NCBI RefSeq assembly: GCF_041261445.1
Contig: NZ_JBGCCU010000003.1
Location: forward strand, 124,001 to 188,000
Length of the DNA stretch: 64,000 nucleotides
Reading direction: 5' to 3'
Origin: Catenulispora sp. EB89
GTDB taxonomy: Bacteria; Actinomycetota; Actinomycetes; Streptomycetales; Catenulisporaceae
Shown here: positions 16,280 to 35,029 of the stretch, piece after piece
Position numbering within the stretch: position 1 is the stretch's first letter
Layout: each line of letters begins with the position of its first letter
Made by a program: the position numbers and the translations under genes
Notes under the pieces: model-generated
The model's database searches: none
Seen by the model: only the letters and a program-made list of their open reading frames with translations
What the model was told of the DNA's origin: nothing

Positions 16280-16317
16280 ACCCGCCTCCGCATCTCCCGG
16301 CCCGGCTCTCCCTTCCC

Positions 16318-16342: not shown

Positions 16343-16522
16343 AGGCATTCCTTTCAGTGTAACGGCGTGTAGCCGGGAATGGTCCTTCCCCCTGTGCGCT
16401 ATCGGCTGCGGCCCAGGTCGAAGGCGCCGGTCAGGACGTGGGACGCGGCCGGGCGCCGGACGGCCGCCGATCGGCCGCCCGTTGCTCTGTACCCGCTCTG
16501 CCGCCGCGCAGACGCGCCGCGG

Positions 16523-16554
16523 GCCGACAGGATCGGGAGCTGACAGGATCGGGA
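16523..16554 (+). repeat. 16-bp tandem direct repeat at the MBL gene start
   Basis: GCCGACAGGATCGGGA is repeated immediately as GCTGACAGGATCGGGA, ending one base before the ATG of the MBL gene. It may be a duplicated promoter/-10 region or a binding site for an activator that recognises direct repeats. Confidence 0.6.
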
Positions 16555-16555
16555 C

Positions 16556-17407: not shown

Positions 17408-17417
17408 TCTGGCAGGC

Positions 17418-18263: not shown

Positions 18264-18266
18264 TAG

Positions 18267-18294
18267 TCCTCTGGTCAGTGTCCTCTGGTTAGTG
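18267..18294. repeat. 14-bp tandem repeat containing a stop codon
   Basis: TCCTCTGGTCAGTG is repeated as TCCTCTGGTTAGTG between convergent genes. The second copy contains the TAA stop (minus strand) of the DUF4232 gene, and the first holds a TGA in another frame. Confidence 0.7.
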
Positions 18295-18801
18295 GGGCGC
18301 GGCGTAGGACCCGGTGACCCAGTTCCCTTCGTAGGTGGTGTCGTCCGCGCAATGCGTCGCGCCGCCGTAGGGGACATCGGTGCCCGGCGGGGTCACGCGC
18401 ACGTAAGCGATCGTGGCGTCGCACGGCGGATTGCCGTCGGTGCCGTAGCCGACGGCCATCGCCGCCGAGCCGCCCGGAGGCAGTCTGTGCGGCGGCACGC
18501 TCTGATCGGGACTGAACGCGACCGCGATCGGCCGGTGTTTCGCGTCGAGGTACTGGAGCCGGGGCTGCCCGGGCAGCGTGCAGGTGTTCTTGCCGTGGTT
18601 GACGACGACGAGGTCGGTGAACGTGGCTCCCGCCGCGGCGCCTGGCAACGGCACGATCTCGGCCGTGAGCGCGGAGCAGGAGCGCGCGTTGTGCTCGGCG
18701 CCGGTCTCCGTCCCGGTCCTCGCCCCGGAATCGGCGGCGGTCAGCGTACTGATGGCGGCCACGGCCGTCAGTGCTCCGGCGGCCCCGGAAATCCGATGCA
18801 T
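18289..18801 (-). CDS. Secreted DUF4232-like protein
   Basis: 170 aa. An N-terminal signal peptide (about 1-30) is followed by a beta-rich domain with CSALTAEIVPLPGAAAG, NHGKNTCTLPGQPRLQYLD and late cysteines near NPPCDATIAY, the pattern of actinobacterial DUF4232 exported proteins. The mature domain probably holds two disulfides. ATG 18801 has AGGAGG 4 nt upstream. The function is unknown. Confidence 0.78.
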   Translation of the reverse strand: MHRISGAAGALTAVAAISTLTAADSGARTGTETGAEHNARSCSALTAEIVPLPGAAAGATFTDLVVVNHGKNTCTLPGQPRLQYLDAKHRPIAVAFSPDQSVPPHRLPPGGSAAMAVGYGTDGNPPCDATIAYVRVTPPGTDVPYGGATHCADDTTYEGNWVTGSYAAPH

Positions 18802-18850
18802 AGTTCCTCCTGACAGAGATCCCCCTTGCACCGCCTGCCTTTCGGCCTTC

Positions 18851-19507
18851 TCAGCCGCCTTCCTCTTCGAGTTCCAGCCCGAGCCGCTTGCGGGCCCACT
18901 GCTTCAGCGGCGGCGCGAGTTCGTCGACCGCCAGCAGCCGGGCTGCCTCGGCCCGGTCGCGGTGGAAGATCCGGGAGGCGTCGGCGACGGTGAAGCCGTG
19001 CTCGGGCCGGGACAGAACCTCGACGGTGTCGCCGGCCCCGACCTCGCCCTCGGCGACCACCCGCAGGTAGGCGCCGGGCCGCAGGGCCAGCTCGAACCGC
19101 CGGGTCATGCTCTTGTCCCCGGCCCGCACGCCGAGCTTCCAGCAGGGGATCCGGGGCTGCGCCACCTCGAACTCGACGCCGCCGACCCGCCAGCGCTCGC
19201 CGACCACGGCGTGGCTGACGTCGTAGCCGGTGATCGTGAGGTTCTCGCCGACGAATCCGTCCTCGATCTCGCGGCCGAGTTCGGCGGCCCAGAAGTCGAG
19301 GTCCTCGCGGGCGTAGGCGTAGACCGCCTTGTGCACGCCGGCGTGGTTCACCTGGTCGGCCTGCCGGTCGCCGTCGACGTGGTGGTCGACGACCTTCACC
19401 CGGCCCGGCACCGGGTCCTTGAAGATGGCGGTCTGCTTGATCTCGCCGTTCAGCTCCACATCGCGGGGCTGCCCGACGTTGACGGAAATCAGGCGCGCAG
19501 CGGTCAT
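18851..19507 (-). CDS. MOSC-domain protein (YiiM-like)
   Basis: 218 aa. The MOSC core includes HVDGDRQAD, HGVHKAVYAY-type block (here HAGVHKAVYAYARED), FVGENLTITG and the conserved cysteine in PRIPCWKLG that would bind molybdenum cofactor. The C-terminal 3-alpha extension (HGFTVADASRIFHRDR) marks the YiiM group, known for detoxifying N-hydroxylated base analogues. It lies 12 nt after hemW in the same direction, so the two are likely cotranscribed. Confidence 0.88.
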   Translation of the reverse strand: MTAARLISVNVGQPRDVELNGEIKQTAIFKDPVPGRVKVVDHHVDGDRQADQVNHAGVHKAVYAYAREDLDFWAAELGREIEDGFVGENLTITGYDVSHAVVGERWRVGGVEFEVAQPRIPCWKLGVRAGDKSMTRRFELALRPGAYLRVVAEGEVGAGDTVEVLSRPEHGFTVADASRIFHRDRAEAARLLAVDELAPPLKQWARKRLGLELEEEGG

Positions 19508-19519
19508 GGCGCCATCCTC

Positions 19520-20746
19520 TCAGTCGACGAGATCCCGGACAACCGCGTCTGCCAGCAGTCTTCCCTTGAGCGTAAGGACTGCAAACCCCTCGGCCAGTGA
19601 CCGCGGATCGAGCAGTCCCTCGGCCGCGGCGCCGATCGCGGCCTGGCGTCCGGCGGGATTGAGGATGCTGATGTCGCAGCCGGAGTCCAGCCGCAGTTCC
19701 AACAGGATCCGCTCGACGCGGCGGTCCTCGGCGTCCAGCACCTCGCGGGCGTGCGCCGGGGACCGGCCGGCCGCGATCCGCTGCGAGTAGGCGCTCGGAT
19801 GCTTGACGTTCCACCAGCGCGTGCCGCCGACGTGGCTGTGCGCGCCGGGACCGACGCCCCACCAGTTGGCGCCGGTCCAGTAGAGCAGGTTGTGGCGTGA
19901 GCGCCCCTGCGGCGTGGCGGCCCAGTTGGAGACCTCGTACCAGCCGTAGCCGGCGGCGGCCAGGGCCTGGTCGGCGATCAGGTAGCGGTCGGCGTGGACG
20001 TCGTCGTCGATCATCGGCAGCTCGCCGCGCTTCACGCGGGCCGCCAGGCGGGTGCCGTCCTCGACGATCAGCGAGTACGCCGAGACGTGGTCGGGGGCGG
20101 CGCCGATCGCGGCGTCCAGGGACGCGCGCCAGTCGTCGTCGCTCTCGCCGGGCGTGCCGTAGATCAGGTCGAGGTTGACGTGCTCGAACCCGGCCGCGCG
20201 CGCCTCGCGGACGCACGCCTCGGGGCGCCCGGGGGTGTGCCGGCGGTCCAGGATCTGCAACACGTGCTCGCGAGCGCTCTGCATGCCGAACGAGATCCGG
20301 GTGAACCCGCCGGCGCGCAGCTCGGCCAGGTACGCCGGATCCACCGACTCGGGGTTGGCCTCGGTGGTGATCTCGGCGTCCGGGGCCAGCCCGAACTCGT
20401 CGCGGACCGCGCCGAGCAACGCGACGAGGTCGGCGGCCGGGAGCATGGTCGGCGTACCGCCGCCGAAGAACACCGTCTGCACCGGCAGATCCGCGCCGCC
20501 GAGCACCTTGCGCGCCAGCCGGATCTCCTCGATCGCGGTGGCGCCGTAGGTGGCCTGCGAGGCGCCGCCGCCGAGTTCGGAGGCGGTGTAGGTGTTGAAG
20601 TCGCAGTAGCCGCAGCGGGTCGCGCAGTACGGGACGTGGATGTAGAACGCGAGCGGCGTGCGGGACAGGTCGGGCTCGGCGAGGGCCTGCGGCGGCAGCG
20701 ATCCGTCAGTGGGGACGGGTTCACCGTCGAGAGGGACACCTGGCAT
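19520..20746 (-). CDS. hemW: Radical SAM heme chaperone HemW
   Basis: 408 aa. The radical-SAM cluster motif CATRCGYC provides Cys41, Cys45 and Cys48. FFGGGTPTML, ITTEANPES and the HemW-specific RHNLLYWTGANWWGVGPGAHS separate it from coproporphyrinogen dehydrogenase HemN. HemW inserts heme into respiratory enzymes. It usually lies between lepA and hrcA in actinobacteria; here an 8.5-kb accessory stretch separates it from lepA. Confidence 0.94.
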   Translation of the reverse strand: MPGVPLDGEPVPTDGSLPPQALAEPDLSRTPLAFYIHVPYCATRCGYCDFNTYTASELGGGASQATYGATAIEEIRLARKVLGGADLPVQTVFFGGGTPTMLPAADLVALLGAVRDEFGLAPDAEITTEANPESVDPAYLAELRAGGFTRISFGMQSAREHVLQILDRRHTPGRPEACVREARAAGFEHVNLDLIYGTPGESDDDWRASLDAAIGAAPDHVSAYSLIVEDGTRLAARVKRGELPMIDDDVHADRYLIADQALAAAGYGWYEVSNWAATPQGRSRHNLLYWTGANWWGVGPGAHSHVGGTRWWNVKHPSAYSQRIAAGRSPAHAREVLDAEDRRVERILLELRLDSGCDISILNPAGRQAAIGAAAEGLLDPRSLAEGFAVLTLKGRLLADAVVRDLVD

Positions 20747-20790
20747 GCCTTTATTGTCCCTTACCTGTCAGGCCCGCCTGACCGAACCGC

Positions 20791-21642
20791 TCAGGCGCCG
20801 CCGACCCACTGCGCCATCACGGCCTGCACGGCCGAACCGTCGACGTCGGCCAGCTTGCCCCCGACGAACCCGCGGGCCCATTCCGAGGTCTGGACGCGGA
20901 ACGGCGGCTCCTCGGCCTGCAGGACGTCGACGATCGTCGCGGCGGCCTCCTCGGCGCTCTGCGCGTTGCCGAACGACTGCCGTGCACGGTCGATGTAGGC
21001 CTGGAGCGCAGGGCCGTACGGACCGGCCGCGGCCACCAGCGCGGGCACGTCGAGCCGCTGGCTGGCGACGAACTCGCTGGCCACCGCGCCGGGCTCGACC
21101 ACGCTCACCCGCACCCCGACCGTCGCCGCGACCGACGTCAGCGCCTCCATGAAGCCCTCGACGGCGAACTTCGCCGCGCAGTACGCCTCGTTGAACGGCT
21201 GCCCGACCACGCCGCCGACGCTGGTGACCGTGACCAGCCGGCCCTTGGACTCGCGCAGGTGCGGCATCGTCGCGCGGGTGACCTCCACCACGCCGAAGTA
21301 GTTGACCTCCATGGCCGCCCGGACCGGGTCCATGCCTGCGACCTCGATCGTGCCGACCACGCCGGCTCCGGCGTTGTTCACCACGGCGTCCAGCCCGCCG
21401 TGCGCGGCGGCGGCGCGGGCCACCGTCGACCGGATGCCGGCCGCGTCGGTGACGTCCAGGTACTCGACGTGGATGCGGCCCCCGACGCCCACGGCACCGG
21501 CCTCGGCCAGCAGGTGGCCGGCCTTGCCGGGATCGCGCATCGTGGCCACGACGTCCCAGCCGGCACGCGCGGCGCCGACCGCCGCGGCCAGGCCGATGCC
21601 GGAGGAGGTACCCGTGATCAGGACGGTCTTCGACGCAGTCAT
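20791..21642 (-). CDS. Short-chain dehydrogenase/reductase
   Basis: 283 aa classical SDR. The cofactor motif TGTSSGIG is at residues 10-17, NNAG is present, and the catalytic Ser, Tyr and Lys sit in TSVGG and YCAAK. The C-terminal layout resembles oxidoreductases acting on hydrophobic alcohols; the substrate is unknown. GTGGAG lies 7 nt before ATG 21642. It follows the MFS gene by about 110 nt. Confidence 0.9.
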   Translation of the reverse strand: MTASKTVLITGTSSGIGLAAAVGAARAGWDVVATMRDPGKAGHLLAEAGAVGVGGRIHVEYLDVTDAAGIRSTVARAAAAHGGLDAVVNNAGAGVVGTIEVAGMDPVRAAMEVNYFGVVEVTRATMPHLRESKGRLVTVTSVGGVVGQPFNEAYCAAKFAVEGFMEALTSVAATVGVRVSVVEPGAVASEFVASQRLDVPALVAAAGPYGPALQAYIDRARQSFGNAQSAEEAAATIVDVLQAEEPPFRVQTSEWARGFVGGKLADVDGSAVQAVMAQWVGGA

Positions 21643-21751
21643 GCGCGGACTCCACATCTGAGGCGTTCTGGGCATCATCGCACCGGACCGCCGGGCCGTC
21701 CGCAAGCAGACGGGGCCGCCCGCTCGACGGGCTTGATGCAAATGCCCGGAC

Positions 21752-23062
21752 TCAGACCGCCGGCACCACCGCCACCGCCTGCGCCGCTCCGGCCTCCGCT
21801 CCGGCCTCCGCAGCGGCCAGCAGCGCCGGCGGCCGGATCCGCACCGCCAGCGGCATCGCGCATCCGGCGGCCGCGAACACCGCCCCGACCGCGAACCACC
21901 CGGCCGGCGCCCAGTCCACACAGGCCAGCGAGTAGATCCCGGGCGCCAGCGACATCGCGGCGCCCGTGATCATCCCGAGCAGGCCCTGGTACTGCCCCTG
22001 CGCGTGCTCGGCGGCCAACTCGTACCCGAGCTCGAACACCCCGGCCTGCTGCACGATCTCCCCGATCGAGTGCACCGCGGCGGCCACCACCAGCAGCACC
22101 ACCGCGGCCCACGCCGGCACCCACCCGATCGACCCGAACAGCACCGCGGCCCCGGCGAAGATCCACCCGGACCGCACCGTCGCCCGCACCCCCTTGGCGA
22201 CCGTGTCCACACCCCGGCTCATCCGCACCTGCAACCCCGCGACCAGCACCGTGTTGACCACCAGGACCGCGCCAACGGTCCAGCGCGGAGCGTGCCCCAG
22301 CTTGGCGATCCACAGCGGCGCCGCGAACAGCAGCACCTCGAACTGCATGCTCATCACGCCGATCAGCGCCGCGCAGGCCAGGAACCGCCGGTCCCCCAGC
22401 GCGATCCACCGGTCGGCCCCCGGCGGCACCGGCAGCGGATCCATCCGCGGCACGCGCAGCGCGATCGCCGAGGACACCAGGAACGTCACCGCGTTGAACC
22501 CGATCAGCCCGACGTACCAGGCGCGGGTGTCGAAGATCAGGCCGAGCCCGCCGGCCACGCCGCCCAACGCGATCCCGACGTTGGTGACCGAGCGCAGATA
22601 CGCCCGGAACACCGCCTTCTCCTCGCCCCCGAACCGCGCGATCATCGCCCCGCGCGCGGCCCGGTTGCTGGAGGCGACCAGGTTCTCGACGATCGCCACC
22701 CCGAGAAACTGCCAGAAGCCGTGGACCATGGTGAACGCCACCATCACCAGCCCGGACAGCACCCCGAGCACGACACTCACCTCACGCGGCCCGCGCCGGT
22801 CCGCGAGGTGTCCGACCGGGACGCCCGCGACGAGTCCGAACAGGCCCGCGACGGTCAGGCCGAGGCCGACCTGCGAGGCCGGCAGGCCGACCGAGCGCGT
22901 GAAGTACATGACCATGACGGTCATGTACATGCCGTTGCCGATCGTGTTGACGAACGTGGCCACGGCCATGGTTCTCTGCACGCGATCCTGTGGCAGCAAA
23001 CGCAAAACACCCTCCCCAGCGGCGATCTCCCCAACGCCTTGACGCCCCGACCCTATCGTCAT
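21752..23062 (-). CDS. MFS transporter
   Basis: 436 aa with about 12 hydrophobic segments. The loop 2-3 signature reads GHLADRRGPREVS, typical of major-facilitator drug or metabolite exporters. The ending is Ala/Glu-rich. ATG 23062 is chosen with a GAGG/GGGGG stretch upstream; a longer frame reaching 23197 would run through the terminator of the opposite-strand leader. The cargo is unknown. It diverges from the GNAT gene. Confidence 0.88.
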   Translation of the reverse strand: MTIGSGRQGVGEIAAGEGVLRLLPQDRVQRTMAVATFVNTIGNGMYMTVMVMYFTRSVGLPASQVGLGLTVAGLFGLVAGVPVGHLADRRGPREVSVVLGVLSGLVMVAFTMVHGFWQFLGVAIVENLVASSNRAARGAMIARFGGEEKAVFRAYLRSVTNVGIALGGVAGGLGLIFDTRAWYVGLIGFNAVTFLVSSAIALRVPRMDPLPVPPGADRWIALGDRRFLACAALIGVMSMQFEVLLFAAPLWIAKLGHAPRWTVGAVLVVNTVLVAGLQVRMSRGVDTVAKGVRATVRSGWIFAGAAVLFGSIGWVPAWAAVVLLVVAAAVHSIGEIVQQAGVFELGYELAAEHAQGQYQGLLGMITGAAMSLAPGIYSLACVDWAPAGWFAVGAVFAAAGCAMPLAVRIRPPALLAAAEAGAEAGAAQAVAVVPAV

Positions 23063-23112
23063 ACCCCCTAGCCTCGAAAGACTATTACCGATGCCGAGCG
23101 GTAGACTGTCGT

Positions 23113-23155
23113 TGCATCTCAAGCCTCCCGGCGTTCCGGGAGGCTTTTCCGTTTT
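23113..23155 (+). ncRNA. Short leader RNA or attenuator ending in an intrinsic terminator
   Basis: A perfect 11-bp stem (AAGCCTCCCGG at 23121-23131, CCGGGAGGCTT at 23136-23146, loop CGTT) is followed by TTCCGTTTT, a textbook rho-independent terminator. No rightward gene ends before it: the only upstream gene is divergent. TAGACT at 23102-23107 could be a -10. The site therefore either attenuates the GNAT gene starting at 23181 or ends a small RNA. Confidence 0.6.
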
Positions 23156-23180
23156 CTGGGCGTCTTTCCGGGAGCTTCTT

Positions 23181-23729
23181 GTGGCTGATCTGGTCAATGC
23201 GGGCGATCTGAGTGATCCGGGCGATCAGGGTGATCCCGGTGATCTCCTCGTGCGGCGCGCCGATACCGCCGATCCCGTCGATCGCGCGGCGTTGGAGCGC
23301 ATGTGGCTGATGTTCCGGCACGACATGTCGGAGTTCGCCGGGCAGCTGCCGAATCCGGACGGGTCGTTCCGGAGCGAGTGGCTGCAGTCGGCGCTGGAGG
23401 ACGAGAACTGGGCTGCGTACTTGGCACTCGTGGGCGACCGGCCTGCGGGGTTCGCGTTCGTGCGGGCTCTGGAACAGCCGACTCGGGTGCTGAACAGCTT
23501 CTTCATCGTGCGCGGCGCGCGGCGGGGCGGGTACGGGATGCGGTTCGTCAAGCAGGTGTTGGCCGCGCATCCGGGGCCGTGGGAGATCGCGTTTCAGGAG
23601 CGGAACGTCCAGGGCGCGAAGTTCTGGCGGCGGGTGGCCGCCGAGGTCGCCGGGGACGCGTGGCACGAAGAGGTGCGGCCGCCGCTGACCGGCGGGACGG
23701 TGCCGAACGTGTGGGTCGTTATTCCGTAG
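23181..23729 (+). CDS. GNAT-family N-acetyltransferase
   Basis: 182 aa from GTG 23181, which has GGGAG 6 nt upstream. The N-terminus is Asp/Gly-rich. The GNAT core includes DRPAGFAFVRALE, the CoA-binding RGARRGGYGMRFVKQVL and the final strand block IAFQERNVQGAKFWRRVA. The substrate is unknown. Its leader contains an intrinsic terminator, so expression may be attenuated. The RNA-ligase gene begins 32 nt after it, possibly from its own promoter. Confidence 0.82.
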   Translation: MADLVNAGDLSDPGDQGDPGDLLVRRADTADPVDRAALERMWLMFRHDMSEFAGQLPNPDGSFRSEWLQSALEDENWAAYLALVGDRPAGFAFVRALEQPTRVLNSFFIVRGARRGGYGMRFVKQVLAAHPGPWEIAFQERNVQGAKFWRRVAAEVAGDAWHEEVRPPLTGGTVPNVWVVIP

Positions 23730-23761
23730 AGACGCGCCGGATCGATGCCTACAGTGGCGCC

Positions 23762-25489
23762 ATGCGAGTCCACTATCCCCGTACGCCTCATCTGCCGTGG
23801 TCGCCTGGCGCCACCGCGGATGATGTGCGTGCGCGGGATCTGGCAGGGCTCGTAGGGCGCCGCGTCGTGGTCACCGAAAAGATGGACGGGGAGAACACGA
23901 CGCTGTATGGGGACGGGCTGCACGCGCGGTCTTTGGACTCGGCGCACCATCCGTCGCGCGCTTGGGTGAAGGCGTTGCATAGTCGGGTGGCGATGCGGAT
24001 CCCCGAGGGGTGGCGGATCTGTGGGGAGAACCTGTTCGCCGAGCATTCGATCTCTTATAGCGAGCTGGACGGGTACTTCTACGGGTTCTCCGTATGGGAC
24101 GGCGAGCGGTGCCTTGACTGGGCATCCACGGTGAGTTTCCTCCAGGGGCTGGGGATCCCGACGCCGCGTGTCCTGTGGGCCGGGACCTTCGATGAGAAGG
24201 CGATCCAGAAGCAGCTGAAGCTGGATCTGAGCCGGCAGGAGGGGTACGTAGTACGGGCCGCGGAGGAGTTCTCCTATAAGGAGTTCGCGGAGAGGGTCGC
24301 CAAGTGGGTTCGGCCGTCGCATGTGCAGACGGACACGCACTGGATGCACGCTGAGGTGGTGCCGAACGGGCTCGGGGCTCAGGCGCCGTTCTGGGCTGTC
24401 CGGAGCGGCGTGGATGTCGATGCCGAGGAGCTTTCCGCGGCGCTCTCTATAGGAGCTCCCAAGAAGGACGACGTACTGGCTGACGCCTATGTGCGTCTCG
24501 ACTCCGCAGGCTGTCACGGGAACGCGCGCCTGGTCGGCGCCGTCGCCGCACTGACGCATCGCGAACCGCGCGCAATGCTTATGGCGAGCCTCGCAGCGTC
24601 TCTGGAGATGCCGACTGTGCGACGCATCGCTGATGTCGTCGGGCTCGCTCCTCGTCTGCAGATGTCCTTCGATGATGAACACCGCCGGGCAGGGCTCGCG
24701 CGGATGTCGTTCGGTGCTGACTTGGCGGTGCTTCACGCTGTTGCTGCCGCTACGGCTGCGGACAAGGCTGCCACTGAGAACGTCGCGTGGTCGGTCTTGT
24801 TCGCAGAGGACTCAGGGCTGCTGCCGGAATCCCCTATAGAGGCGCTACGCATAGCGTGCCGAGAAGCGTTTGCCGAGCTCTCTGCGCGCGCCGCTGATCG
24901 CTGCTGGGGCGAAGCACGTCAGCTGTTCGCGGAGGGGCGTCTCGCTTCTTCTGAAGAAGCTGTGGCGGCGACGTGGAGATGGCGGGACGGTGCGTTTCCC
25001 AAGGTGCTCCATATGGTCGGGGTATCCGGTAGCGGCAAGAGTTCTACGGCGACTGCGCTTGCCGGTCGCGAGAACACGGTGCTCGTCAGCCTTGACGATC
25101 TGCGCACGGAGCGCGGATCGCGGTCTGATCAGTCGGCGAACCAAGAGGTGCTGACGGAGGGACTGCGGTTGCTCGACGAAGCGCTGTCGCAGGGGACGGA
25201 TGTGGTCTGGGACGCGACTTCTCTTACGCGGCAGCAGCGGGGTTTGGTGGGTGGCGTCGCACGACGCCGCAATGCTCTGACGGAGTACGTGGTGCATCTG
25301 GCGCCGGGTTCGGTGCTGGAGAAGCGGAACGCGGGGCGTGCGCATCCTGTGCCGGCGAAGGTGTTGGCCGCGCAGGTGCGTCGGTTCGACCCGCCGTATC
25401 CGGGCGAGGCGCATCGTGCGGTGTACGTCGACATGGTGGGCGAGGACAGTGCGTTCGACGTGCTCGGCTCCTCGGTATGGGAGGGGTGA
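23762..25489 (+). CDS. RNA ligase fused to polynucleotide kinase
   Basis: 575 aa. Residues 1-225 are an Rnl-type RNA ligase: motif I EKMDGEN with the adenylated lysine as Lys40, ICGENLFAEHSI (motif III region), QEGYVVR (motif IV) and KWVRP (motif V). Residues 225-410 are alpha-helical and of unknown type. The C-terminal third is a P-loop kinase with Walker A GVSGSGKSS (about 420-428) and WDATSLTRQQR, as in T4-type 5'-polynucleotide kinases. Together they could phosphorylate and seal RNA breaks. ATG 23762 follows TACAGT by 6 nt, suggesting leaderless start. Three ATA isoleucine codons (24449, 24836, 24851) are unusual for this genome. The partner gene starts 6 nt downstream. Confidence 0.88.
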   Translation: MRVHYPRTPHLPWSPGATADDVRARDLAGLVGRRVVVTEKMDGENTTLYGDGLHARSLDSAHHPSRAWVKALHSRVAMRIPEGWRICGENLFAEHSISYSELDGYFYGFSVWDGERCLDWASTVSFLQGLGIPTPRVLWAGTFDEKAIQKQLKLDLSRQEGYVVRAAEEFSYKEFAERVAKWVRPSHVQTDTHWMHAEVVPNGLGAQAPFWAVRSGVDVDAEELSAALSIGAPKKDDVLADAYVRLDSAGCHGNARLVGAVAALTHREPRAMLMASLAASLEMPTVRRIADVVGLAPRLQMSFDDEHRRAGLARMSFGADLAVLHAVAAATAADKAATENVAWSVLFAEDSGLLPESPIEALRIACREAFAELSARAADRCWGEARQLFAEGRLASSEEAVAATWRWRDGAFPKVLHMVGVSGSGKSSTATALAGRENTVLVSLDDLRTERGSRSDQSANQEVLTEGLRLLDEALSQGTDVVWDATSLTRQQRGLVGGVARRRNALTEYVVHLAPGSVLEKRNAGRAHPVPAKVLAAQVRRFDPPYPGEAHRAVYVDMVGEDSAFDVLGSSVWEG

Positions 25490-25495
25490 GCGGGG

Positions 25496-28387
25496 ATGCG
25501 GACCAGTCAGGAGATCTATCACCGGGTGCGGTGGGACGCTCGGTTCGACGCGTCGCGGTTCGTGGTGGGGGTGGAGAACCGGGGGCGAGAGCCGAAGCGG
25601 GTGCCGCTGCCTTCGTTCGATCCGCAGGGCGATATTCCGTGGCACCGGGTGTTGTTCTTCGAGGCTGACGGTCAGTTGGTGTGGGACCGGGCTTCGGGCG
25701 TGGATGCCTTGGACGCGTCCGGGGCTGGGCTGGCGCAGCGGACGCGGTTGTTGGCCGCTCCGTTCTTCGAGCCGCGCACTCCGCATGCTTTTACCGACGG
25801 CCGCTGGCAGCCTTACTCTTCCGCTGCCTCTCCGTCCTCTCCGGTTATCCGCCCCGATCTACAGGTCCTTACGTGGAACACGCTGTGGGACCGGTACGAC
25901 AAGGAGCTCGTCCGGACTGCCGAGCGTCGGCCGATGCTGCTCGCTGCGTTGCGCGACGCGGACGTGGACGTGATCGCGTTGCAGGAGGCCGAGCCCGCGC
26001 TGGTGAAGATGCTGCTGGCCGAGGAGTGGGTGCGTGCCGGGTGGACGCTCGGCGGGGATCCTCGGTCTTCGGACGTCGCGGAGAGCGGGTTGTTCCTGCT
26101 GAGCCGGCTGCCGGTGGTCGAGGCCGGGTGGCACGCGCTGGGGCGGTACAAGGCGGTCACGGCGTTGGTGGTGGAGGGCGCGGCCGGACCGGTCGTCGTC
26201 GCCAATACGCACCTGAGCAGCGACCACTCGACGGACGGCGCGGGGCTGCGGCGGGAGCAACTCGCGCAGCTGGCCGACGGCCTGGGGGACATCGCGTCGG
26301 TGCCGGTGGTTCTCGTCGGCGACTTCAACGACGACACCGAGGCGCCGGCCGCGCGGCTCGGGATGACGGACGCGTGGACGCAGGTGCACGGCGCGGCTGA
26401 TGACACGGCGACGTTCGATCCGACGGTGAACCCGCTGGCGGCGGTGTCGTCGCTGACCGGGCAGGCCAAGCGCCTGGACCGGGTGCTGCTGCTCGGCGCC
26501 GAGGCCTCGGCGGCGCGGCTGGTCGGCGATGCTCCGGACTCGGGCGGCTTGTTCGTGTCCGACCACTACGGGATCAGCGCCGTGGTGACGCCCCAGGCCA
26601 CCGCCGACCCTGCGCCGGCCGCCACCCTCCCCCTCGCCGCGGCGCCGATCGACGCGACGCCAACCGCCCGCACCGCCGTCGCCTGGATCCCTCCGACCTC
26701 GGCATGGGAGCCGATCCAGGAGGTCCGCCGCCGCCTGGACCCGCAGGTGCTGCGCTGGCCCCCGCACGTCAACCTCCTGTTCGGCTTCATCCCCGAGTCC
26801 GAGTTCGACGCCGCACTCCCCCTGCTCAGCAAGGCCGCAGCCACCACCGGCGCCTTCGAGACGCAGCTGGCCGAAGTCCGCCACTTCACCCACCGCAGCG
26901 ACAGCACCCTGTGGCTCCACCCCACCGGCGCAGCCTGGCAGACCCTGCACGCCGCGCTCACCGAGGCATTCCCCACCTGCCGCACCCGCGAGTCGTACAC
27001 ACCACACCTGACCCTCGGCAAAGTAGCGGACCCGACACGCACACCAGCCAAGATCGCCCCAACAACAGCCACCGTCACCGAACTCGCCCTCCTCTCCCGC
27101 CGCGCCGACGGCCCCATGCAGGTGCGCGCAATCATCGAGCTCGGCACCGGCACGATCCGCTACGCGAAGGACGCGGCCGGCGAGGACGCCGACGCCCACT
27201 CAGCCGCCACGCCCTCGGCCCCATTCGGCCCCGGCGGCTGCCTACTCCCGGACACCGTGGTTCCCTCATCCGCCACCGCCGCCCTCGCCGCGGAACTCGC
27301 CGCCGCCACTCGCAGCACCAGCACCACTCCGGCCGCCGCATCCGTGCCCGGCACCGCCGCACCCGCCACCGACCGCCCCGCCGCCACCCTCACCGCCCGC
27401 ATCACCGAAGCCCTCCCCGAGGCCGTCATCCACCTCGTCGGTTCCCGCCGCACCGCCACCCACCTCCCCGGCGCCGACCTGGACCTCGTCGCGGCCGTCC
27501 CGGGCGCCCCCGACATCGATGCGCTCGAGCGCCGCGTCGCCCGCGCTCTCGGCGGGGGCCACCGGGTGCGGCAGCTCGTCGCCGCGCGGGTTCCGGGCCT
27601 GCGGATCGTCACGCCGCGGCTCAGTGCCGATCTCGTGCTCGCTCCCACTGGCGACATTCCGCCGGCCGAGGCTGTCGCGCGGCGCGCCGAGCTCGGCGAG
27701 AGCATCGCCAGTTCGCTGTCCGCCGTGTCTGATGCCGAGGCGATTCTCGCGCTGCGCCCGGGTCCGCACGTGCGGGTCGCCAAGGCCTGGGCTCGGGCCC
27801 GGGGCCTCGACGCCGCGCCGCTCGGCGGGTTGCCGGGACTCGCGTGGGCGCTGATGGCGGCCCGCTGCGGCGACCTCACCGAGTTCTTCGAGACCTGGGC
27901 CGCGCACGACTGGCGCGAGCCGATTCCCACCCCCACCGCGCCGGTCCGCGACCTCACGATGCACCTGACCCCGGCGATGCGCGACCTGGTAACCGAGGAG
28001 CTCTACGACGCGTGGGAGACCGTCACCTCCACCCGCGACCCGCTGCCGGCGCTCCTCGCGCCGCCGCCGATGCACCGGCGCCATCGGCGCTGGGCCGTGC
28101 TCACCCTCACGACGGACGGCATCGATCAGCGCGACGTCCTGGAAGGACGCGTCCGAGGCCGTGCCCGCAGCCTCCTGTCAGCCCTCGACGAAGCCGGCGT
28201 CCCCGACGCCCACGCCTGGCCGCGTCCCTTCCACGCCACCGACACCGAGCTGCGCTCCGCCATCGGCCTCGGCCGCACCCCGCCGACCCGCGACAAGCTG
28301 GCGGAGATCGCCAAGCCGTGGCTGCGGGGGCTGACCGGCGTCACGCTGGAACTCGCGGCGAACGGCGACGTGCCGACCCTGAGCTAG
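25496..28387 (+). CDS. Multidomain RNA-repair protein (MJ1316, EEP, 2H, nucleotidyltransferase)
   Basis: 963 aa. Domains in order: MJ1316/DUF504 RNA-end domain (1-80, with IYHRVRWD and IPWHRVLFFE); EEP phosphatase/nuclease (about 120-360, with LTWNTLWDRYD, ALQEAE, VGDFND and SDHYG); 2H phosphoesterase (about 395-530, motifs H424-V-N and H504-L-T, the first with Asn in place of Ser/Thr); pol-beta nucleotidyltransferase (about 630-840, Gly649-Ser650 and Asp661-Leu-Asp663) with PAP-like helices; and a C-terminal block after 857 of unknown fold. 2H, EEP and kinase activities would clean 2',3'-cyclic or blocked ends before sealing by the upstream ligase. The gene ends in a tandem array of in-frame stop codons. 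Confidence 0.87.
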   Translation: MRTSQEIYHRVRWDARFDASRFVVGVENRGREPKRVPLPSFDPQGDIPWHRVLFFEADGQLVWDRASGVDALDASGAGLAQRTRLLAAPFFEPRTPHAFTDGRWQPYSSAASPSSPVIRPDLQVLTWNTLWDRYDKELVRTAERRPMLLAALRDADVDVIALQEAEPALVKMLLAEEWVRAGWTLGGDPRSSDVAESGLFLLSRLPVVEAGWHALGRYKAVTALVVEGAAGPVVVANTHLSSDHSTDGAGLRREQLAQLADGLGDIASVPVVLVGDFNDDTEAPAARLGMTDAWTQVHGAADDTATFDPTVNPLAAVSSLTGQAKRLDRVLLLGAEASAARLVGDAPDSGGLFVSDHYGISAVVTPQATADPAPAATLPLAAAPIDATPTARTAVAWIPPTSAWEPIQEVRRRLDPQVLRWPPHVNLLFGFIPESEFDAALPLLSKAAATTGAFETQLAEVRHFTHRSDSTLWLHPTGAAWQTLHAALTEAFPTCRTRESYTPHLTLGKVADPTRTPAKIAPTTATVTELALLSRRADGPMQVRAIIELGTGTIRYAKDAAGEDADAHSAATPSAPFGPGGCLLPDTVVPSSATAALAAELAAATRSTSTTPAAASVPGTAAPATDRPAATLTARITEALPEAVIHLVGSRRTATHLPGADLDLVAAVPGAPDIDALERRVARALGGGHRVRQLVAARVPGLRIVTPRLSADLVLAPTGDIPPAEAVARRAELGESIASSLSAVSDAEAILALRPGPHVRVAKAWARARGLDAAPLGGLPGLAWALMAARCGDLTEFFETWAAHDWREPIPTPTAPVRDLTMHLTPAMRDLVTEELYDAWETVTSTRDPLPALLAPPPMHRRHRRWAVLTLTTDGIDQRDVLEGRVRGRARSLLSALDEAGVPDAHAWPRPFHATDTELRSAIGLGRTPPTRDKLAEIAKPWLRGLTGVTLELAANGDVPTLS

Positions 28388-28467
28388 GCCCTGAACTAGG
28401 CCCTCAGCTAAGCCCTCAGCTAAGCCCTCAGCTAAGCCCTGAGCTAGGCCCTGAGCCAGGTCCTAAG
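28384..28467. repeat. 12-bp x 7 minisatellite with stop codons
   Basis: Seven 12-bp units (consensus CTAGGCCCTGAG) start on the stop codon of the RNA-repair gene and run into the stop codon of the convergent phzF-like gene. Because 12 is a multiple of 3, the first six units give TAG/TAA in the same frame as the upstream gene (28385, 28397, 28409, 28421, 28433, 28445). Confidence 0.9.
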
Positions 28468-29170
28468 CCGTCCCCCCGACCGTCACCGTCCGCATCCCGT
28501 CCCCCGCCACCCGCCCGCCGATCTCAGCCCACCCCGCGGCCTGAGCCGGCCGGGCCAAGATCTCCGACCCCCACCCCTGCCGAATCACCAAAGGCCGCCG
28601 CAAAGCCCCCACCTGCCGCATCGCCGCGGACCCGGTCGCCTCGTCCTCGTCGACCCCGCTGTCGGCAGCGAACACCCGCGCCCGCATCACGCCCTGCGGC
28701 TCGTCGACCCACGCCCAGAACTGGTGGCGCCGGTACTCCGGCCCCGGAGGCACGGCCAGCGTCTCCACCGCAGCCTCGTCCCTGACCTCGACCAGGCCCC
28801 AGTCCGGCGCGTCGTCGATCCGCCCGCGGATCCACGTGCGGCCCTCCTCGGCCCAGGTCGGGACCTCTGCGGCCTTCTGCGGCCGCAGCGTCGGCACGTC
28901 GCGCCCGCTCAGCCGGGACAGCAGCCAGGCCGTGCCGACCAGCGGGTGCCCCGCCAGCGGCAGCTCCGCCGCCGGGGTGAAGATGCGCAACCGGGCCTGT
29001 TCGACGTCGTCGACGAACACCACCTCGCTGAACCGCAGGTCGGAGGCCAGTTTCTGGCCCGCGGCGGCGTCCAGGTGGGCAGCGTCGAGCACCACGCCCA
29101 GGTTGTTGCCGAACAATCCGTGCGCATCGGTGAAAACCCGGACTATATGGACCTCGGCCATCACGCTCAT
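28463..29170 (-). CDS. PhzF-family isomerase/epimerase-like protein
   Basis: 235 aa. Characteristic blocks are FGNNLGVVLD, SEVVFV with the probable catalytic glutamate, FTPAAELPLAGHPLVGTAW and DEATGSAA. Family members catalyse proton shifts in phenazine and other small-molecule pathways, and most are uncharacterised. It is somewhat short for the family (about 260-290 aa). TAGCCT lies 6 nt before ATG 29170, indicating a leaderless start. Confidence 0.85.
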   Translation of the reverse strand: MSVMAEVHIVRVFTDAHGLFGNNLGVVLDAAHLDAAAGQKLASDLRFSEVVFVDDVEQARLRIFTPAAELPLAGHPLVGTAWLLSRLSGRDVPTLRPQKAAEVPTWAEEGRTWIRGRIDDAPDWGLVEVRDEAAVETLAVPPGPEYRRHQFWAWVDEPQGVMRARVFAADSGVDEDEATGSAAMRQVGALRRPLVIRQGWGSEILARPAQAAGWAEIGGRVAGDGMRTVTVGGTA

Positions 29171-29207
29171 GGGCACAGGCTACTGCCCGCGCCCGGCTGC
29201 GTGACCG

Positions 29208-31061
29208 TTACTTCTTCGCCTTGTCACCCGTCTCGTTGGTCAGCGCGGCGATGAAGGCGTCCTGCGGCACCTCGACCCGCCCGACCATCTTCATCCGCTT
29301 CTTGCCTTCCTTCTGCTTCTCCAGCAGCTTGCGCTTCCGGCTGATGTCACCGCCGTAGCACTTCGCGAGGACGTCCTTGCGCATCGCCCGAACGGACTCG
29401 CGGGCGATCACGCGGGAGCCGATCGCGGCCTGGATCGGCACCTCGAACTGCTGGCGCGGGATCAGCTCGCGCAGCCGCTCGGTCATGCGCACGCCGTACG
29501 CGTACGCCTTGTCCTTGTGCACGATCGCGGAGAACGCGTCGACGGTCTCGCCGTGCAGCAGGATGTCGACCTTCACCAGGTCCGCCTGCTGCTCGCCGGT
29601 GGGCTCGTAGTCCAGGGACGCGTAGCCGCGGGTCTTGGACTTCAGCGAGTCGAAGAAGTCGAAGACGATCTCGGCCAGTGGCAGCGTGTAGCGGATCTCG
29701 ACGCGGTCCTCGGACAAGTAGTCCATGCCCAGCAGCGCCCCGCGCCGGCTCTGGCACAGCTCCATCACGGCGCCGACGAAGTCGTTCGGCGTCAGGATGG
29801 TCGCGCGCACCACCGGCTCGTGGATCGCCGTCACCTTGCCCCCGGGCATCTCCGAGGGGTTGGTGACGATGTGCTCGGTGCCGTCCTCCATGTCGACCCG
29901 GTAGACCACCGACGGCGCGGTGGCGATCAGGTCCAGGTTGAACTCGCGGTCCAGGCGCTCGCGGATGATCTCCAGGTGCAGCAGACCCAGGAAGCCGACC
30001 CGGAAGCCGAAGCCCAGGGCCGCCGACGTCTCCGGCTCGTAGACCAGGGCCGCGTCATTGAGCTGCAGCTTGTCCAGGGCCTCGCGCAGCTCGGGGTAGT
30101 CCGAGCCGTCGATCGGGTAGATGCCGGAGAACACCATCGGCTTGGGCTCTTTGTAACCGCCGAGAGCTTCCAGGGCGCCCTTGTTCTGGGTGGTGACGGT
30201 GTCGCCGACCTTTGACTGGCGCACGTCCTTCACACCGGTGATCAGGTAGCCCACCTCGCCGGCGGCCAAGCCCTGCGAGGACTTCGGCTCCGGGGAGATG
30301 ACGCCGATCTCCAGCAGCTCGTGGGTGGCGCCGGTGGACATCATCTGGATGCGCTCGCGCTTGTTCAGGTGGCCGTCGACCACCCGGACGTAGGTGACCA
30401 CGCCGCGGTAGGAGTCGTAGACCGAGTCGAAGATCACGGCCCGCGCCGGGCCGTTCGGGTCGCCGGCCGGGGCCGGGACCCGGCGGACCACCTCGTTGAG
30501 CACGTCCGGGACGCCGATGCCGGACTTGGCGCTGACCCGCAGCACCTCGTCGGGCTCGCAGCCGATCAGCCGCGCCATCTCCTCGGCGTACTTCTCCGGC
30601 TGCGCGGCCGGCAGGTCGATCTTGTTCAGCACCGGGATGATCTGCAGGTCGTTCTCCATGGCCAGGTACAGGTTGGCCAGGGTCTGCGCCTCGATGCCCT
30701 GAGCTGCGTCGACCAGCAGGAGGGTGCCCTCGCACGCCGCCAGCGAGCGCGAGACCTCGTAGGTGAAGTCCACGTGCCCGGGGGTGTCGATCATGTTCAG
30801 GATGTAGGTCTTGCCGTCGTCGGCCTGCCAGGGCAGCCGGACCGCCTGCGACTTGATGGTGATCCCGCGCTCGCGCTCGATGTCCATCCGGTCCAGGTAC
30901 TGCGCGCGCATGGCGCGCTCGTCGACCACACCGGTGAGCTGGAGCATCCGGTCGGCCAGGGTCGACTTGCCGTGGTCGATGTGGGCGATGATGCAGAAGT
31001 TGCGGATCAGCGCCTGGTCGGTGGTCGACGGCTGCGGGATGTTCGGCGGCAGGGCGGGCAC
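29208..31061 (-). CDS. lepA: Elongation factor 4 (LepA)
   Basis: 617 aa ribosomal GTPase able to back-translocate stalled ribosomes. GTPase motifs [14 protein letters not shown] and NKID are followed by domains II, III and V and the LepA-specific C-terminus ([40 protein letters not shown]). The start appears to be GTG 31061 with a weak ribosome-binding site. It is divergent from rpsT, the usual arrangement. Confidence 0.96.
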
Positions 31062-31194
31062 TCGGCGGTCCAGTCTGTCTGGGTACGACGTGATGGGGAA
31101 CGAGGTAGTGGTTTATTACACTGCCCCTATCGTCCCATGACCCACGGGGTTACCGGGAACGCTATATGGCGACGTCATGAGCCACACGCCCGGT

Positions 31195-31224
31195 TTGGGC
31201 CCGCGCACGCCCGCCTGTTAGTCT
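31195..31224 (+). promoter_or_regulatory. Candidate rpsT promoter
   Basis: TAGTCT at 31219-31224 is a reasonable -10 for actinobacteria, with TTGGGC 18 bp upstream. It would give an rpsT leader of about 65 nt. Only the hexamers support it. Confidence 0.35.
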
Positions 31225-31296
31225 GGTCCCTTGCGTGGCGCGTGCGTTGCCTCGCGCCCACCACCTTCTATCTCACCAAAGCAGAGGCATCTTTCA

Positions 31297-31563
31297 GTGG
31301 CGAACATCAAGTCCCAGATCAAGCGGATCAAGACCAACGAGAAGGCGCGCCAGCGGAACAAGGCCGTCAAGTCCTCGCTGAAGACCGCGATCCGCAAGAC
31401 CCGCGAGGCCGTCGAGTCCGGCGACGCCGCGAAGGCGCAGGAGCTGGCCCAGGCCGCCTCCCGCGAGCTGGACAAGGCCGCCTCGAAGGGCGTCATCCAC
31501 GCCAACCAGGCCGCGAACAAGAAGTCGGCGCTGGCCAAGAGCGTGAACGCCCTGCAGGGCTGA
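31297..31563 (+). CDS. rpsT: 30S ribosomal protein S20
   Basis: 88 aa, start GTG 31297 with AGAGG 9 nt upstream. The sequence is strongly basic and matches S20 along its length ([20 protein letters not shown], then [17 protein letters not shown]). It binds 16S rRNA early in 30S assembly. It is followed by a strong terminator. Confidence 0.96.
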
Positions 31564-31616
31564 CCCTCTTCCCTGCCATGCGGTCCCTCTCGCCGCGGTA
31601 GAGAAAACCGAACTCC

Positions 31617-31659
31617 CGATCGGCGCGACCCCTTCCCCAGGGGTCGCGCCGATCGTTTT
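31617..31659 (+). terminator. rpsT intrinsic terminator
   Basis: A perfect 16-bp stem (31617-31632 with 31640-31655), a 7-nt loop and a following TTTTC form a strong rho-independent terminator 54 nt after the rpsT stop. Confidence 0.95.
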
Positions 31660-31741
31660 CGTGCGCTGGTTCGTGCGCTGGTTCGTCTGCTGGCTCGTCT
31701 GCTCGTTCGTGCGCTGCTTCGCGTGTTGCTTTGTGTGTTGC
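31658..31741. repeat. 12-bp x 7 minisatellite
   Basis: Seven 12-bp units (TTCGTGCGCTGG, drifting to TTTGTGTGTTGC) directly follow the rpsT terminator and lie upstream of the Ser/Thr kinase gene. Unit length and copy number equal the array at 28384, but the sequence is unrelated. Confidence 0.88.
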
Positions 31742-31838
31742 GTGCTGCCATACCGCGACGTGGCGACCGGAGCCATAGCGCTACGCTGAGCGCGGGGCAG
31801 CACCGCACAAGAGAATCACTGGGGGTGGGGACGACTTC

Positions 31839-33851
31839 ATGGAGCCGCTGCGATCGGGCGATCCGAGACGGATCAGCAGCTACGAGATCCTGAACCGGCT
31901 CGGCGCCGGGGGCATGGGGCAGGTGTACCTGGGACGCTCGCCGTCCGGGCGCCGCGTGGCGGTGAAGGTGATCCGCCCCGAGCTCACCAACGACCCCACC
32001 TTCCGCCAGCGCTTCCGCCGCGAGGTCACGGCGATGCGGCAGGTCTCCGGCTTCTTCACGGCCCCGGTGGTCGACGCCGACCCCGACGGCGACCCGGCGT
32101 GGCTGGCCACGGCGTTCGTGCCCGGGCCGTCGCTGGAGAGCGCGGTCGCCGACGGCGGCGCGATCCCGCACCAGGACGTGCTCCTGCTGGCCGCGGGCCT
32201 GGCCGAGGCGCTGAACGCGATCCACCGCGAGGGCCTGACGCACCGCGACCTGAAGCCGGGCAACGTCCTGATGGCCGACGACGGCCCGCGGGTCATCGAC
32301 TTCGGCCTGGCCGTCGCCACCGGGGCCACCAACCTGACGCAGGCCGGCACCGTGGTCGGCACCCCCGCCTTCATGTCGCCGGAGCAGGTCTCCGGCCACA
32401 ACGTGGGCCCGGCCTCCGACGTCTGGTCGCTGGGCGCGGTCCTGGCCTACGCGGCCACCGCCGCCTCCCCCTTCGGCGACGGCACCACCATGGAGACGAT
32501 GCTGCGGGTGATGAACGGCGAGCCGGACCTGTCCGGCCTGACCGGGACGCTGGCGCAGCTGGTGACCGCGTGCATGGCGAAGGACCCGAACGCGCGGCCG
32601 ACGCCGGCGCGGATCCTGCAGGTGCTGTCGGAGGGCGCCGGGGTGCAGGCGACGATGGCGATGGACGTGCAGGTTCCGGGTGCGGGGGCGGCGGCTGCCG
32701 CGGCTGCGCAGGCCGGTCAGCCTGGACCGACGCCGACGCCACATCCGGCTCCGGGTCCGACTGCGGCTCCGAACCCGACGCCGACGGCGCCCGCTTGGGG
32801 CTCGGGTCAGCACGCCGGTCCGGTTTCCGGTTCGACTTCCACGGCACCTGCCTGGGGCTCCGGCCAGAACACCAATCCGCCGCCCGCCACCCCGCCCCAG
32901 TCAACGGCACCGGCGTGGGGCGCCCCTGCCCCGTCACCGCAGTCATCCGCCCCGGCCTGGGGCTCCGGCGCCGCTCCCACCGCGCCCACGCCCGCCTGGG
33001 GCGCGCCCGGTCCGATGTCCGGACCCTCCACCCCGCCCCAGCCGGTACCGTCCATGCCCGCCAACCCCTGGCCGCAGCAGACCTCGGGCCAGCAACCGTC
33101 GCCGATGTACCAGGCCGCCCCGCCGACCCAGGCCGCGCAAGCCGCGAGCCCCTGGATCCAGCCGCAGCCCGCGCCGCCCTACGGCGTCCCGATGCCCCCG
33201 CCCGCGCCGCCCAAGAAGAACCGCAACGGCCTGATAGCGGCGGTCGGCATCGCAGCGGTGGTCGTGGTCGGCGGCGGTATCGCGATCGCGGCCTCCGGCG
33301 GCGGCTCCGGCGGCTCGTCGGGCGGCACCGGCGGCGGCACCACCGGAGGCACCCTCGGCGGCACCGGCGGCATCGGCGCGCTGACCCCGATCCCCGCCAC
33401 CTTCCCGCTGTCCAGCCTGGTCACCGACGCGGACGCCGCGCAGTACCTGCACACGACGCCCACCGCCTCGGCCCCGACCGACGACTCCACGGACGACCCC
33501 ACCACCTTCGACAAGGACTGGCTGGTCGACTCCTCGAGCTCGGAGCTGCGGGTCCAGGCCTCGAACTACAAGAGCGACAGCCAGCAGGCCGAGTCCGACT
33601 TCGTCAACCACATCTCGACCCTGGCGACCGACGCCCAGTACCAGGACGAGGGCGCACTCGGCAACTCGGACAAGACCGAGATCCAGGTCGCCACCGACCA
33701 GAGCAGCGGCCTGCAGCACTGCAAGATCGAGGTCCTGCGCGGCGGACTGGACGTGACGGTGACCTTCGTCGAGTCGGGCTCGGCGGCCAACGCGCAGACC
33801 GACGTGCTGAACCTCGCCAAGCTGGTCACCGGCCGACTGCCGGCGAAGTAG
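31839..33851 (+). CDS. Membrane Ser/Thr protein kinase with Pro/Trp-rich linker
   Basis: 670 aa. Hanks-type kinase domain (about 15-265) with GAGGMG loop, Lys43, HRDLKPGN (Asp137) and DFG (154-156), so it should be active. Residues 280-460 form a Pro/Ala/Gly/Thr-rich cytosolic linker with at least five APAWG motifs. One transmembrane helix (about 464-487) leads to a Gly-rich spacer and a C-terminal extracellular domain of about 160 aa, with no PASTA repeats. The signal is unknown. Confidence 0.92.
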   Translation: MEPLRSGDPRRISSYEILNRLGAGGMGQVYLGRSPSGRRVAVKVIRPELTNDPTFRQRFRREVTAMRQVSGFFTAPVVDADPDGDPAWLATAFVPGPSLESAVADGGAIPHQDVLLLAAGLAEALNAIHREGLTHRDLKPGNVLMADDGPRVIDFGLAVATGATNLTQAGTVVGTPAFMSPEQVSGHNVGPASDVWSLGAVLAYAATAASPFGDGTTMETMLRVMNGEPDLSGLTGTLAQLVTACMAKDPNARPTPARILQVLSEGAGVQATMAMDVQVPGAGAAAAAAAQAGQPGPTPTPHPAPGPTAAPNPTPTAPAWGSGQHAGPVSGSTSTAPAWGSGQNTNPPPATPPQSTAPAWGAPAPSPQSSAPAWGSGAAPTAPTPAWGAPGPMSGPSTPPQPVPSMPANPWPQQTSGQQPSPMYQAAPPTQAAQAASPWIQPQPAPPYGVPMPPPAPPKKNRNGLIAAVGIAAVVVVGGGIAIAASGGGSGGSSGGTGGGTTGGTLGGTGGIGALTPIPATFPLSSLVTDADAAQYLHTTPTASAPTDDSTDDPTTFDKDWLVDSSSSELRVQASNYKSDSQQAESDFVNHISTLATDAQYQDEGALGNSDKTEIQVATDQSSGLQHCKIEVLRGGLDVTVTFVESGSAANAQTDVLNLAKLVTGRLPAK

Positions 33852-33927
33852 AACGCAGCGACACCGACACCGCAGTCGCGGCCGCGCCGAAGACCTCTGA
33901 CGCGCGGCTGCGGCCGGTTTGGGGTCC

Positions 33928-34923: not shown

Positions 34924-34960
34924 CGGGTCAAGCATGGCACGGCCCGGTGACAAGTCCCTA

Positions 34961-35029
34961 TTGCCCGGCCTGTCTCACCCTTGCCCGGCCTGTCTCACCC
35001 TTGCCCGGCCTGTCTCAGCCTTGCCCGCC
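34961..35029. repeat. 20-bp x 3 minisatellite containing stop codons
   Basis: Three near-identical units (TTGCCCGGCCTGTCTCACCC, the third with AGCC) plus a partial fourth lie at the 3' end of the HhH-GPD gene. Each unit carries a minus-strand TGA, and the 20-bp period puts them in three different frames. The real stop (35015) is in unit 3. Confidence 0.88.

Follow-up and report, generated by a model that had tools for sequence, protein, structure and literature searches.

Two adjoining genes of Catenulispora sp. EB89, here called P1 and P2, probably encode a single system that heals and seals the ends of broken RNA, with P2 healing the 3' ends that a dead HD domain within P1 no longer can. 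They lie in a stretch of 64,000 nucleotides (contig NZ_JBGCCU010000003.1, positions 124,001 to 188,000), the whole of which is called the window. A sequence-only reading of the window had already noticed the two genes, 6 nt apart, and assigned them to the handling of RNA ends. That theme was correct: both frames are open at their coordinates (Table 1), the domains, their order, and Lys40 of P1 hold up by Pfam and profile matches and by residue conservation, and co-inheritance supports the idea of one system.

I propose the following sequence of events, in which I infer the catalytic steps, their substrates and order, the direction of gene fusion, and the role of the HD domain as a scaffold. 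The MJ1316 domain of P2 would recognize a broken RNA carrying a 2',3'-cyclic phosphate. The exonuclease-endonuclease-phosphatase (EEP) domain, aided by the 2H domain where there is one, would clear the 3' end to 2',3'-OH, and the poly(A)-polymerase-like module may extend the healed end with further nucleotides. The kinase of P1 would phosphorylate the 5'-OH end, and the adenylated ligase domain of P1 would join the RNA ends. P1 would have arisen from a Deinococcus-type set, a minimal ligase plus an HD-kinase protein, whose two genes became fused and whose HD active site was lost. Selection would have retained the HD remnant as a structural or RNA-holding part, 3'-end healing having moved to P2.

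One reason to consider the two proteins together is that they are inherited together. In genomes picked from the surveys of P1 in relatives and in the order, MJ1316-EEP is found in 52 of the 53 that bear P1 and in none of the 27 that do not (Fisher p 2e-20, ignoring shared ancestry), where the 53 count broken copies of P1 (fragments such as those in G051, G731, G745, and G752; G and L numbers denote genomes and loci) and leave out the genus of the window. The sole exception is G752, where P1 is truncated and the adjoining remnant matches just the last ~59 residues of P2, and G027, lacking P1, has an MJ1316-2H protein only. Conservation of the pair across actinobacteria, which the earlier reading had put forward as a check, thus supports one system. 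All 13 actinobacterial genomes that were compared have P2. Of 15 non-actinobacterial genomes, 11 show no match at all, two match in a single domain, and two have a P2-like protein (28 of 29 loci were searched, L075 being left out).

The second line of evidence concerns the middle of P1 (residues 225-410), a helical region thought undescribed by the earlier reading. It is, by homology, a degenerate HD domain. When the alignment of 36 P1 sequences was compared by hhalign with 51 relatives in which an HD domain precedes a polynucleotide kinase (HD-PNK), the P1 middle matched with probability 98.8 (E 3.8e-16) and in the opposite direction with probability 98.2 (E 3.8e-13), while all 20 controls (1 reversed and 19 column-shuffled) gave E of 0.3 or worse. 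A new helical fold was rejected in view of this homology and these controls. All seven conserved HD-type residues are kept in 52 of 54 non-actinobacterial sequences (loci L046-L101, 56 in all, minus L047 and L075, which have no kinase-bearing match; two of the 54 are without the HD stretch) but in none of 19 actinobacterial sequences, which retain at most three of the seven. The 19 are the distinct sequences recovered by a simple gene caller, as against 36 in the P1 alignment. No HD family stands among the best 25 of the 36 families listed for P1 sequences. P1 therefore appears homologous to HD-PNK throughout the HD-then-kinase part, with the HD active site gone. What remains does not seem to be in free decay. 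The dN/dS ratio (nonsynonymous to synonymous substitution) of the remnant is 0.088, compared to 0.105 for the ligase domain and 0.097 for all of P1 (one species pair, the window against Catenulispora rubra, whose P1 is 93% identical), and many of its residues are invariant in the 36 sequences, as would be expected from purifying selection.

The flanking domains of P1 keep their catalytic residues. K40, within the motif TEKMDGEN, is invariant in all 36 sequences (34 of them distinct), as are the ligase motif K40-x-D42-G43-E44-N45 and the later motif residues, so that by its nucleotidyl-transferase motifs P1 is a predicted ATP-dependent RNA ligase of the DRB0100-like kind. Equally invariant are the kinase residues G420, S424-S427, D445, R448, and D484. 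The kinase profile matches 4jst at 5.6e-11 (its PDB title is 'Metallophosphoesterase'; I take it to be the Pnkp kinase domain of Clostridium thermocellum) and T4 polynucleotide kinase at 5e-6, and from its P-loop and these residues it is a putative 5'-OH polynucleotide kinase. The sequence-only reading had said that loss of catalytic residues across orthologues would count against it. There is no such loss in the ligase, the kinase, the EEP domain, or the nucleotidyltransferase, whose residues are all invariant, and so the objection does not arise for them; the first motif of 2H, however, deviates, as described below.

The nearest characterized set, by sequence, is the operon DRB0100-DRB0099-DRB0098 of Deinococcus radiodurans (DRB numbers were assigned to the genes of L158 by gene order and product names). 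DRB0100 is 56% identical to P1 over residues 1-207 and has the same K40, and the HD-kinase protein is 36% identical over P1 343-563, kinase included. Between them lies DRB0099, a PARG-type hydrolase, in an operon proposed for RNA and/or DNA repair (PMC11833690); no such gene stands between P1 and P2. The PARG-type (TIGR02452) gene occupies 6630-7487 of L158.

What has been published about DRB0100 makes the final sealing step, which the earlier reading had accepted, less than assured. DRB0100 becomes linked to AMP in a reaction that depends on K40, and neither DNA nor RNA ligation was detected (PMC1997131). It might then be supposed that the cassette tags RNA rather than repairing it: P2 would heal 3' ends and tail the fragments, marking them for decay or storage, and the P1 ligase would stop at the adenylated stage or adenylate ends. 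Self-adenylation with nothing sealed in vitro fits this idea, as does the presence of a poly(A) polymerase module whose catalytic residues are conserved. But the fusion of ligase and kinase fits sealing, as does the invariance of the ligase motifs, and the ligation tests described were of DRB0100 itself, an adenylation domain only, hence its partner may have been absent. Tagging in place of repair strikes me as unlikely.

The fused but dead HD domain has a possible use: a minimal ligase may need HD as a clamp. This hypothesis can be extended to one of domain displacement, in which HD was inactivated but kept as the clamp for sealing by the ligase, healing was passed to an MJ1316-EEP-poly(A) polymerase partner, P2 became a eukaryotic-type polymerase at work in bacterial repair, and the cassette is read from a promoter specific to it. 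This extension is tentative, and I would sooner bet against it than for it. If true, the fused P1 would explain why the stand-alone Deinococcus ligase self-adenylates yet cannot seal. The protein pair is a testable case for this puzzle of DRB0100-type ligases, which adenylate without sealing in vitro, and it illustrates the swapping of healing modules in bacterial RNA repair.

How would P2 take over the 3' end? Its EEP residues Q163, E164, H239, D276, N278, D356, and H357, presumably the metal and catalytic residues of the superfamily, are invariant in 23 aligned sequences, which makes P2 a predicted EEP enzyme. The earlier reading had 2H open the cyclic phosphate and EEP then dephosphorylate, and this is just one option. 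Phosphoesterases of the 2H kind are defined by two H-x-S/T motifs (PMC5283653). In P2 and its relatives the second motif is HxS/T in 42 of 43 sequences, but the first is HxN in 57 of 57, separate MJ1316-2H proteins and two distant homologues included. The match to the family is strong, but given the first motif the domain would be at most a deviant member. Moreover, 7 of the 21 named P2 loci lack 2H, the polymerase following almost directly on EEP in these, whereas MJ1316, EEP, and polymerase are present in all 21. In a tree of the 36 P1 sequences, the loci without 2H plus L018 make up one clade, accounted for by one change with support of 100/99 (the 2H label of L022, whose contig ends within P2, was assumed). 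It appears, then, that a Streptomyces clade lost 2H in a single event and retained EEP. Because 2H is absent from a clade and has HxN as its first motif, EEP is more likely to be the main 3'-end enzyme of P2. There is a precedent in ANGEL2, a deadenylase-family EEP enzyme that removes the whole cyclic phosphate to leave 2',3'-OH (PMC13247085). The nearest PDB structures to the EEP domain of P2 are those of TDP2 (3e-6), with CCR4-type structures at 0.2 only. By these matches it is not closest to the ANGEL/CCR4 branch, though by analogy it may still act as ANGEL2 does.

Some Streptomyces-family genomes, whether or not they have P2, contain separate MJ1316-2H genes (L145, L146, L147, L148, L149, L150), which encode ~270-320 aa (one frame 470). 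Three of the genomes have a short P2 frame (G049, G541, G537), the absence of 2H being direct for G049 and read from frame length only for G541 and G537. That such a gene always replaces a lost 2H was considered and rejected, as the genes are also found with long P2 frames (G032, G657) and without P2 (G027). In the seven 2H-less genomes G064-G070, the best 30 of 37-48 candidates include no such gene.

In an hmmsearch of PDB, residues 620-963 of P2 match the eukaryotic poly(A) polymerases PAPOLG (4lt6, 6e-31), 1f5a (2e-24), and the yeast enzyme (3e-18), and a single alignment covers the catalytic and central domains and runs on into the first part of the C-terminal domain, which I take to be an RRM-like RNA-binding domain. 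The part after 857, called undescribed by the earlier reading, thus falls within the polymerase module; it was dismissed as a new domain since in the joint profile it aligns into the C-terminal domain of the polymerase. Taken by itself this part has no significant PDB match, and so its name rests on the joint alignment. Unlike the five other Pfam domains of P1 and P2 in Table 1, which all exceed their cut-offs, the nucleotidyltransferase is under the Pfam cut-offs in P2 itself and clear by profile, with its GS...DxD...D residues invariant in 16 sequences. Pfam PAP_central is above cut-off in Nonomuraea and Myxococcota homologues and below it in P2. By all three parts P2 would carry a poly(A) polymerase of eukaryotic type, like PAPOLG, PAP alpha, yeast PAP, and Pla1 in its domains and unlike them in being a module within a bacterial RNA-end protein, with the addition of adenosine only predicted. 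Its presence there was unexpected and bears on the origin of such polymerases.

These same domains speak to an older idea. Repair of DNA strand breaks was initially proposed for the Deinococcus operon, which is upregulated on irradiation and encodes a kinase that was assayed on DNA (PMC1997131).

TDP2, the nearest solved relative of the EEP domain, presumably acts, as its name says, on DNA ends. The MJ1316 and 2H families, by contrast, point to RNA ends, the poly(A) polymerase module is likewise RNA-oriented, DRB0100 joined no DNA (PMC1997131), and the 10 annotated features near the Deinococcus operon, in a gene table that is incomplete, do not include a P2. A role for P1 and P2 in mending DNA seems to me improbable, more so than tagging.

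Several facts weigh against one RNA-healing system of the kind I propose. The HD core alone (218-345) aligns more weakly (probability 62, E 1e-5). Two genomes, those of L078 and L096, have a P2-like protein alongside an intact HD-kinase, so P2 cannot be viewed just as a substitute for HD. In Actinospica, P2 is on another contig or at least does not adjoin P1. To the failure of DRB0100 to ligate must be added its operon's link to DNA damage, and the finding, in the same report, that the 3'-phosphatase activity of DRB0098, a kinase, could not be tied to HD residues (PMC1997131), which weakens the case for an intact HD as a healing site. Finally, the response to tRNA- or rRNA-cleaving toxins suggested by the earlier reading has no counterpart in the surroundings: Pfam shows no toxin-like family in nine neighbouring frames, the frame directly before P1 (23091-23729) has no match in Pfam or NCBIfam, and an Rfam scan of window 15000-35000 found no RNA family, tRNA included.

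Other known systems place the pair in context. Outside actinobacteria the ligase (~210 aa, up to 61% identical) mostly has a gene of its own, and the next gene encodes an HD and kinase protein of ~420 aa. These pairs, found in proteobacteria, Verrucomicrobia, Myxococcota, and others, have the same order of ligase, HD, and kinase as P1, but they are two proteins with an intact HD, usually without P2 (11 of the 15 genomes), where the window has a fusion, a dead HD, and P2 added. In gammaproteobacteria (L046, L048, L049, L050, and others) the pair is often preceded by recurring genes of ~390, 210, and 115 aa. The architecture of HD and kinase is that reported by Munir and Shuman for HD-Pnk of Runella slithyformis, in which HD is said to be active on 2',3'-phosphates; the HD residues of P1 are lost. 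The Pnkp/Hen1 and Pnkp1-Rnl-Hen1 systems similarly combine a kinase, 3'-end healing, and a ligase, but with a different domain set that includes a methyltransferase (PMC4411300). The 11.9-Mb genome of the window also has Pnkp adjoining a Hen1 methyltransferase (L002, G000:C32 near 93411; NCBIfam TIGR04075 and TIGR04074 above cut-off), and P1/P2 would therefore be a second, different RNA-repair set. MJ1316 is said to recognize 2',3'-cyclic ends and, as in P2, is joined to RNA-repair domains in eukaryotic fusions (PMC6514570, citing Burroughs and Aravind 2016). Among the titles and abstract openings listed from a licence-limited literature collection, which does not cover Burroughs and Aravind 2016, a likely prior survey, none mentions an MJ1316-EEP-2H-poly(A) polymerase protein or a ligase of this type with a dead HD.

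The distribution of P1 bears on whether the cassette repairs damage at all. Instead it might serve constitutive RNA maturation (circularization, intron joining, or end trimming). In favour of this, the genes near it in the window are ordinary, LepA, a major facilitator superfamily (MFS) transporter, and a radical-SAM protein among them, and the strict pattern for the promoter box described below has no second site in this genome. P1 is present in its own genome and in all nine others of the genus among 60 relatives. Against constitutive maturation, P1 is patchy within the order, where 63 of the 391 genomes have it (a few as fragments), and there are broken copies: in L156 and L021 P1 has lost large internal stretches and adjoins a P2 frame, and in L155 P1 is truncated and lies next to what is left of P2. 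The cassette is being lost in places and is dispensable, and a housekeeping role of this sort I consider very doubtful. In the phylum, P1 was found in 4 of 396 genomes, and in one of these the match (43%) is confined to the ligase part. Matches in a plasmid collection include records from Embleya, Nonomuraea, and Deinococcus. P1 matches 32 phage records, through the ligase part only among the 15 listed, and no P2 was found in phages and viral contigs. The distant P2 genes L152 and L153 have no ligase by Pfam in eight of their neighbouring frames and no BLAST match to P1 nearby.

Table 1. Features of the P1-P2 cassette, in window coordinates
Feature	Coordinates	Strand	Basis or content
Promoter-like element	23721..23755	+	box ATTCCGTAGA (23721-23730), 19 nt, TACAGT (23750-23755), 6 nt before P1 start codon
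P1 gene	23762..25489	+	575 aa; ligase - degenerate HD - 5'-OH polynucleotide kinase
RNA_ligase adenylation domain, predicted ATP-dependent (P1 1-205)	23762..24376	+	Pfam RNA_ligase (PF09414), residues 34-183, 9e-35, above cut-off
Degenerate HD phosphohydrolase domain (P1 218-409)	24413..24988	+	profile-profile alignment with HD of HD-PNK relatives
Putative 5'-OH polynucleotide kinase (P1 410-560)	24989..25441	+	Pfam AAA_33, residues 415-545, 4e-26; P-loop 420-427
P2 gene	25496..28387	+	963 aa; MJ1316 - EEP - 2H - poly(A) polymerase module
MJ1316 domain (P2 1-65)	25496..25690	+	Pfam, 2.4e-19; Pfam name refers to RNA cyclic-end recognition
EEP domain (P2 125-357)	25868..26566	+	Pfam Exo_endo_phos, 1.1e-12
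2H phosphoesterase domain, HVN...HLT motifs (P2 399-538)	26690..27109	+	Pfam 2_5_RNA_ligase2, 3.2e-30
Predicted eukaryotic-type poly(A) polymerase module (P2 620-963)	27353..28384	+	PDB profile search; start of C-terminal domain after ~857

A promoter-like element precedes P1. Catenulispora, Streptomyces, Kitasatospora, Embleya, and Nonomuraea all have upstream regions with the box (at least 7 of 10 matches) and, 18-20 nt on, a -10-like hexamer. The combination is present in 48 of the 55 distinct regions, compared with 3 of 11000 shuffles, the pattern having been tuned on these same upstream sequences and chosen after viewing them. A strict version matches once in the window's genome, at P1. 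Of 25 genomes, 10 have one match each, eight at P1 and two elsewhere (G585, G530), and 15 have none (10 with P1 and 5 without). Since the pattern run backward also matched twice, the two sites away from P1 are at chance level, and the notion of a regulon was given up. By eye, the five stretches viewed, of six upstream of separate MJ1316-2H genes, show no box, and a generic sigma-70 scan found no promoter. The distance from the TACAGT-like hexamer to the start codon is 6 nt in Catenulispora, mostly 27-44 nt in other genera, and 6-8 nt in six sequences. The 6-nt spacing suggests that the P1 transcript is leaderless in Catenulispora.

The cassette is flanked by ordinary genes within the window. 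By Pfam, those upstream encode a DUF3097 protein, MOSC, radical-SAM, a short-chain dehydrogenase, and the MFS transporter, and those downstream PhzC-PhzF, LepA, and a protein kinase. A label of 'GNAT' given by eye to the frame at 23091-23729 is unsupported by Pfam and NCBIfam. Neither P1 nor P2 matches any family in the PADLOC anti-phage defence models, and among ten neighbouring frames the matches are confined to generic ones for the protein kinase at 31839-33851 and one, weak, for the radical-SAM frame.

A 12-bp tandem repeat of 7.7 copies (28377-28468) begins at the extreme end of P2. Third-position GC is low in P1 (0.75) and 0.88-0.90 in P2; P1 is likewise low in L023 and L024 and not in L029, L030, L037, and L040. 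Within P2 the composition switches sharply near window 26600, at the boundary of EEP and 2H, where third-position GC skew goes from about +0.24 to -0.34, and a similar switch is seen in 2 of 8 other loci (L023, L024).
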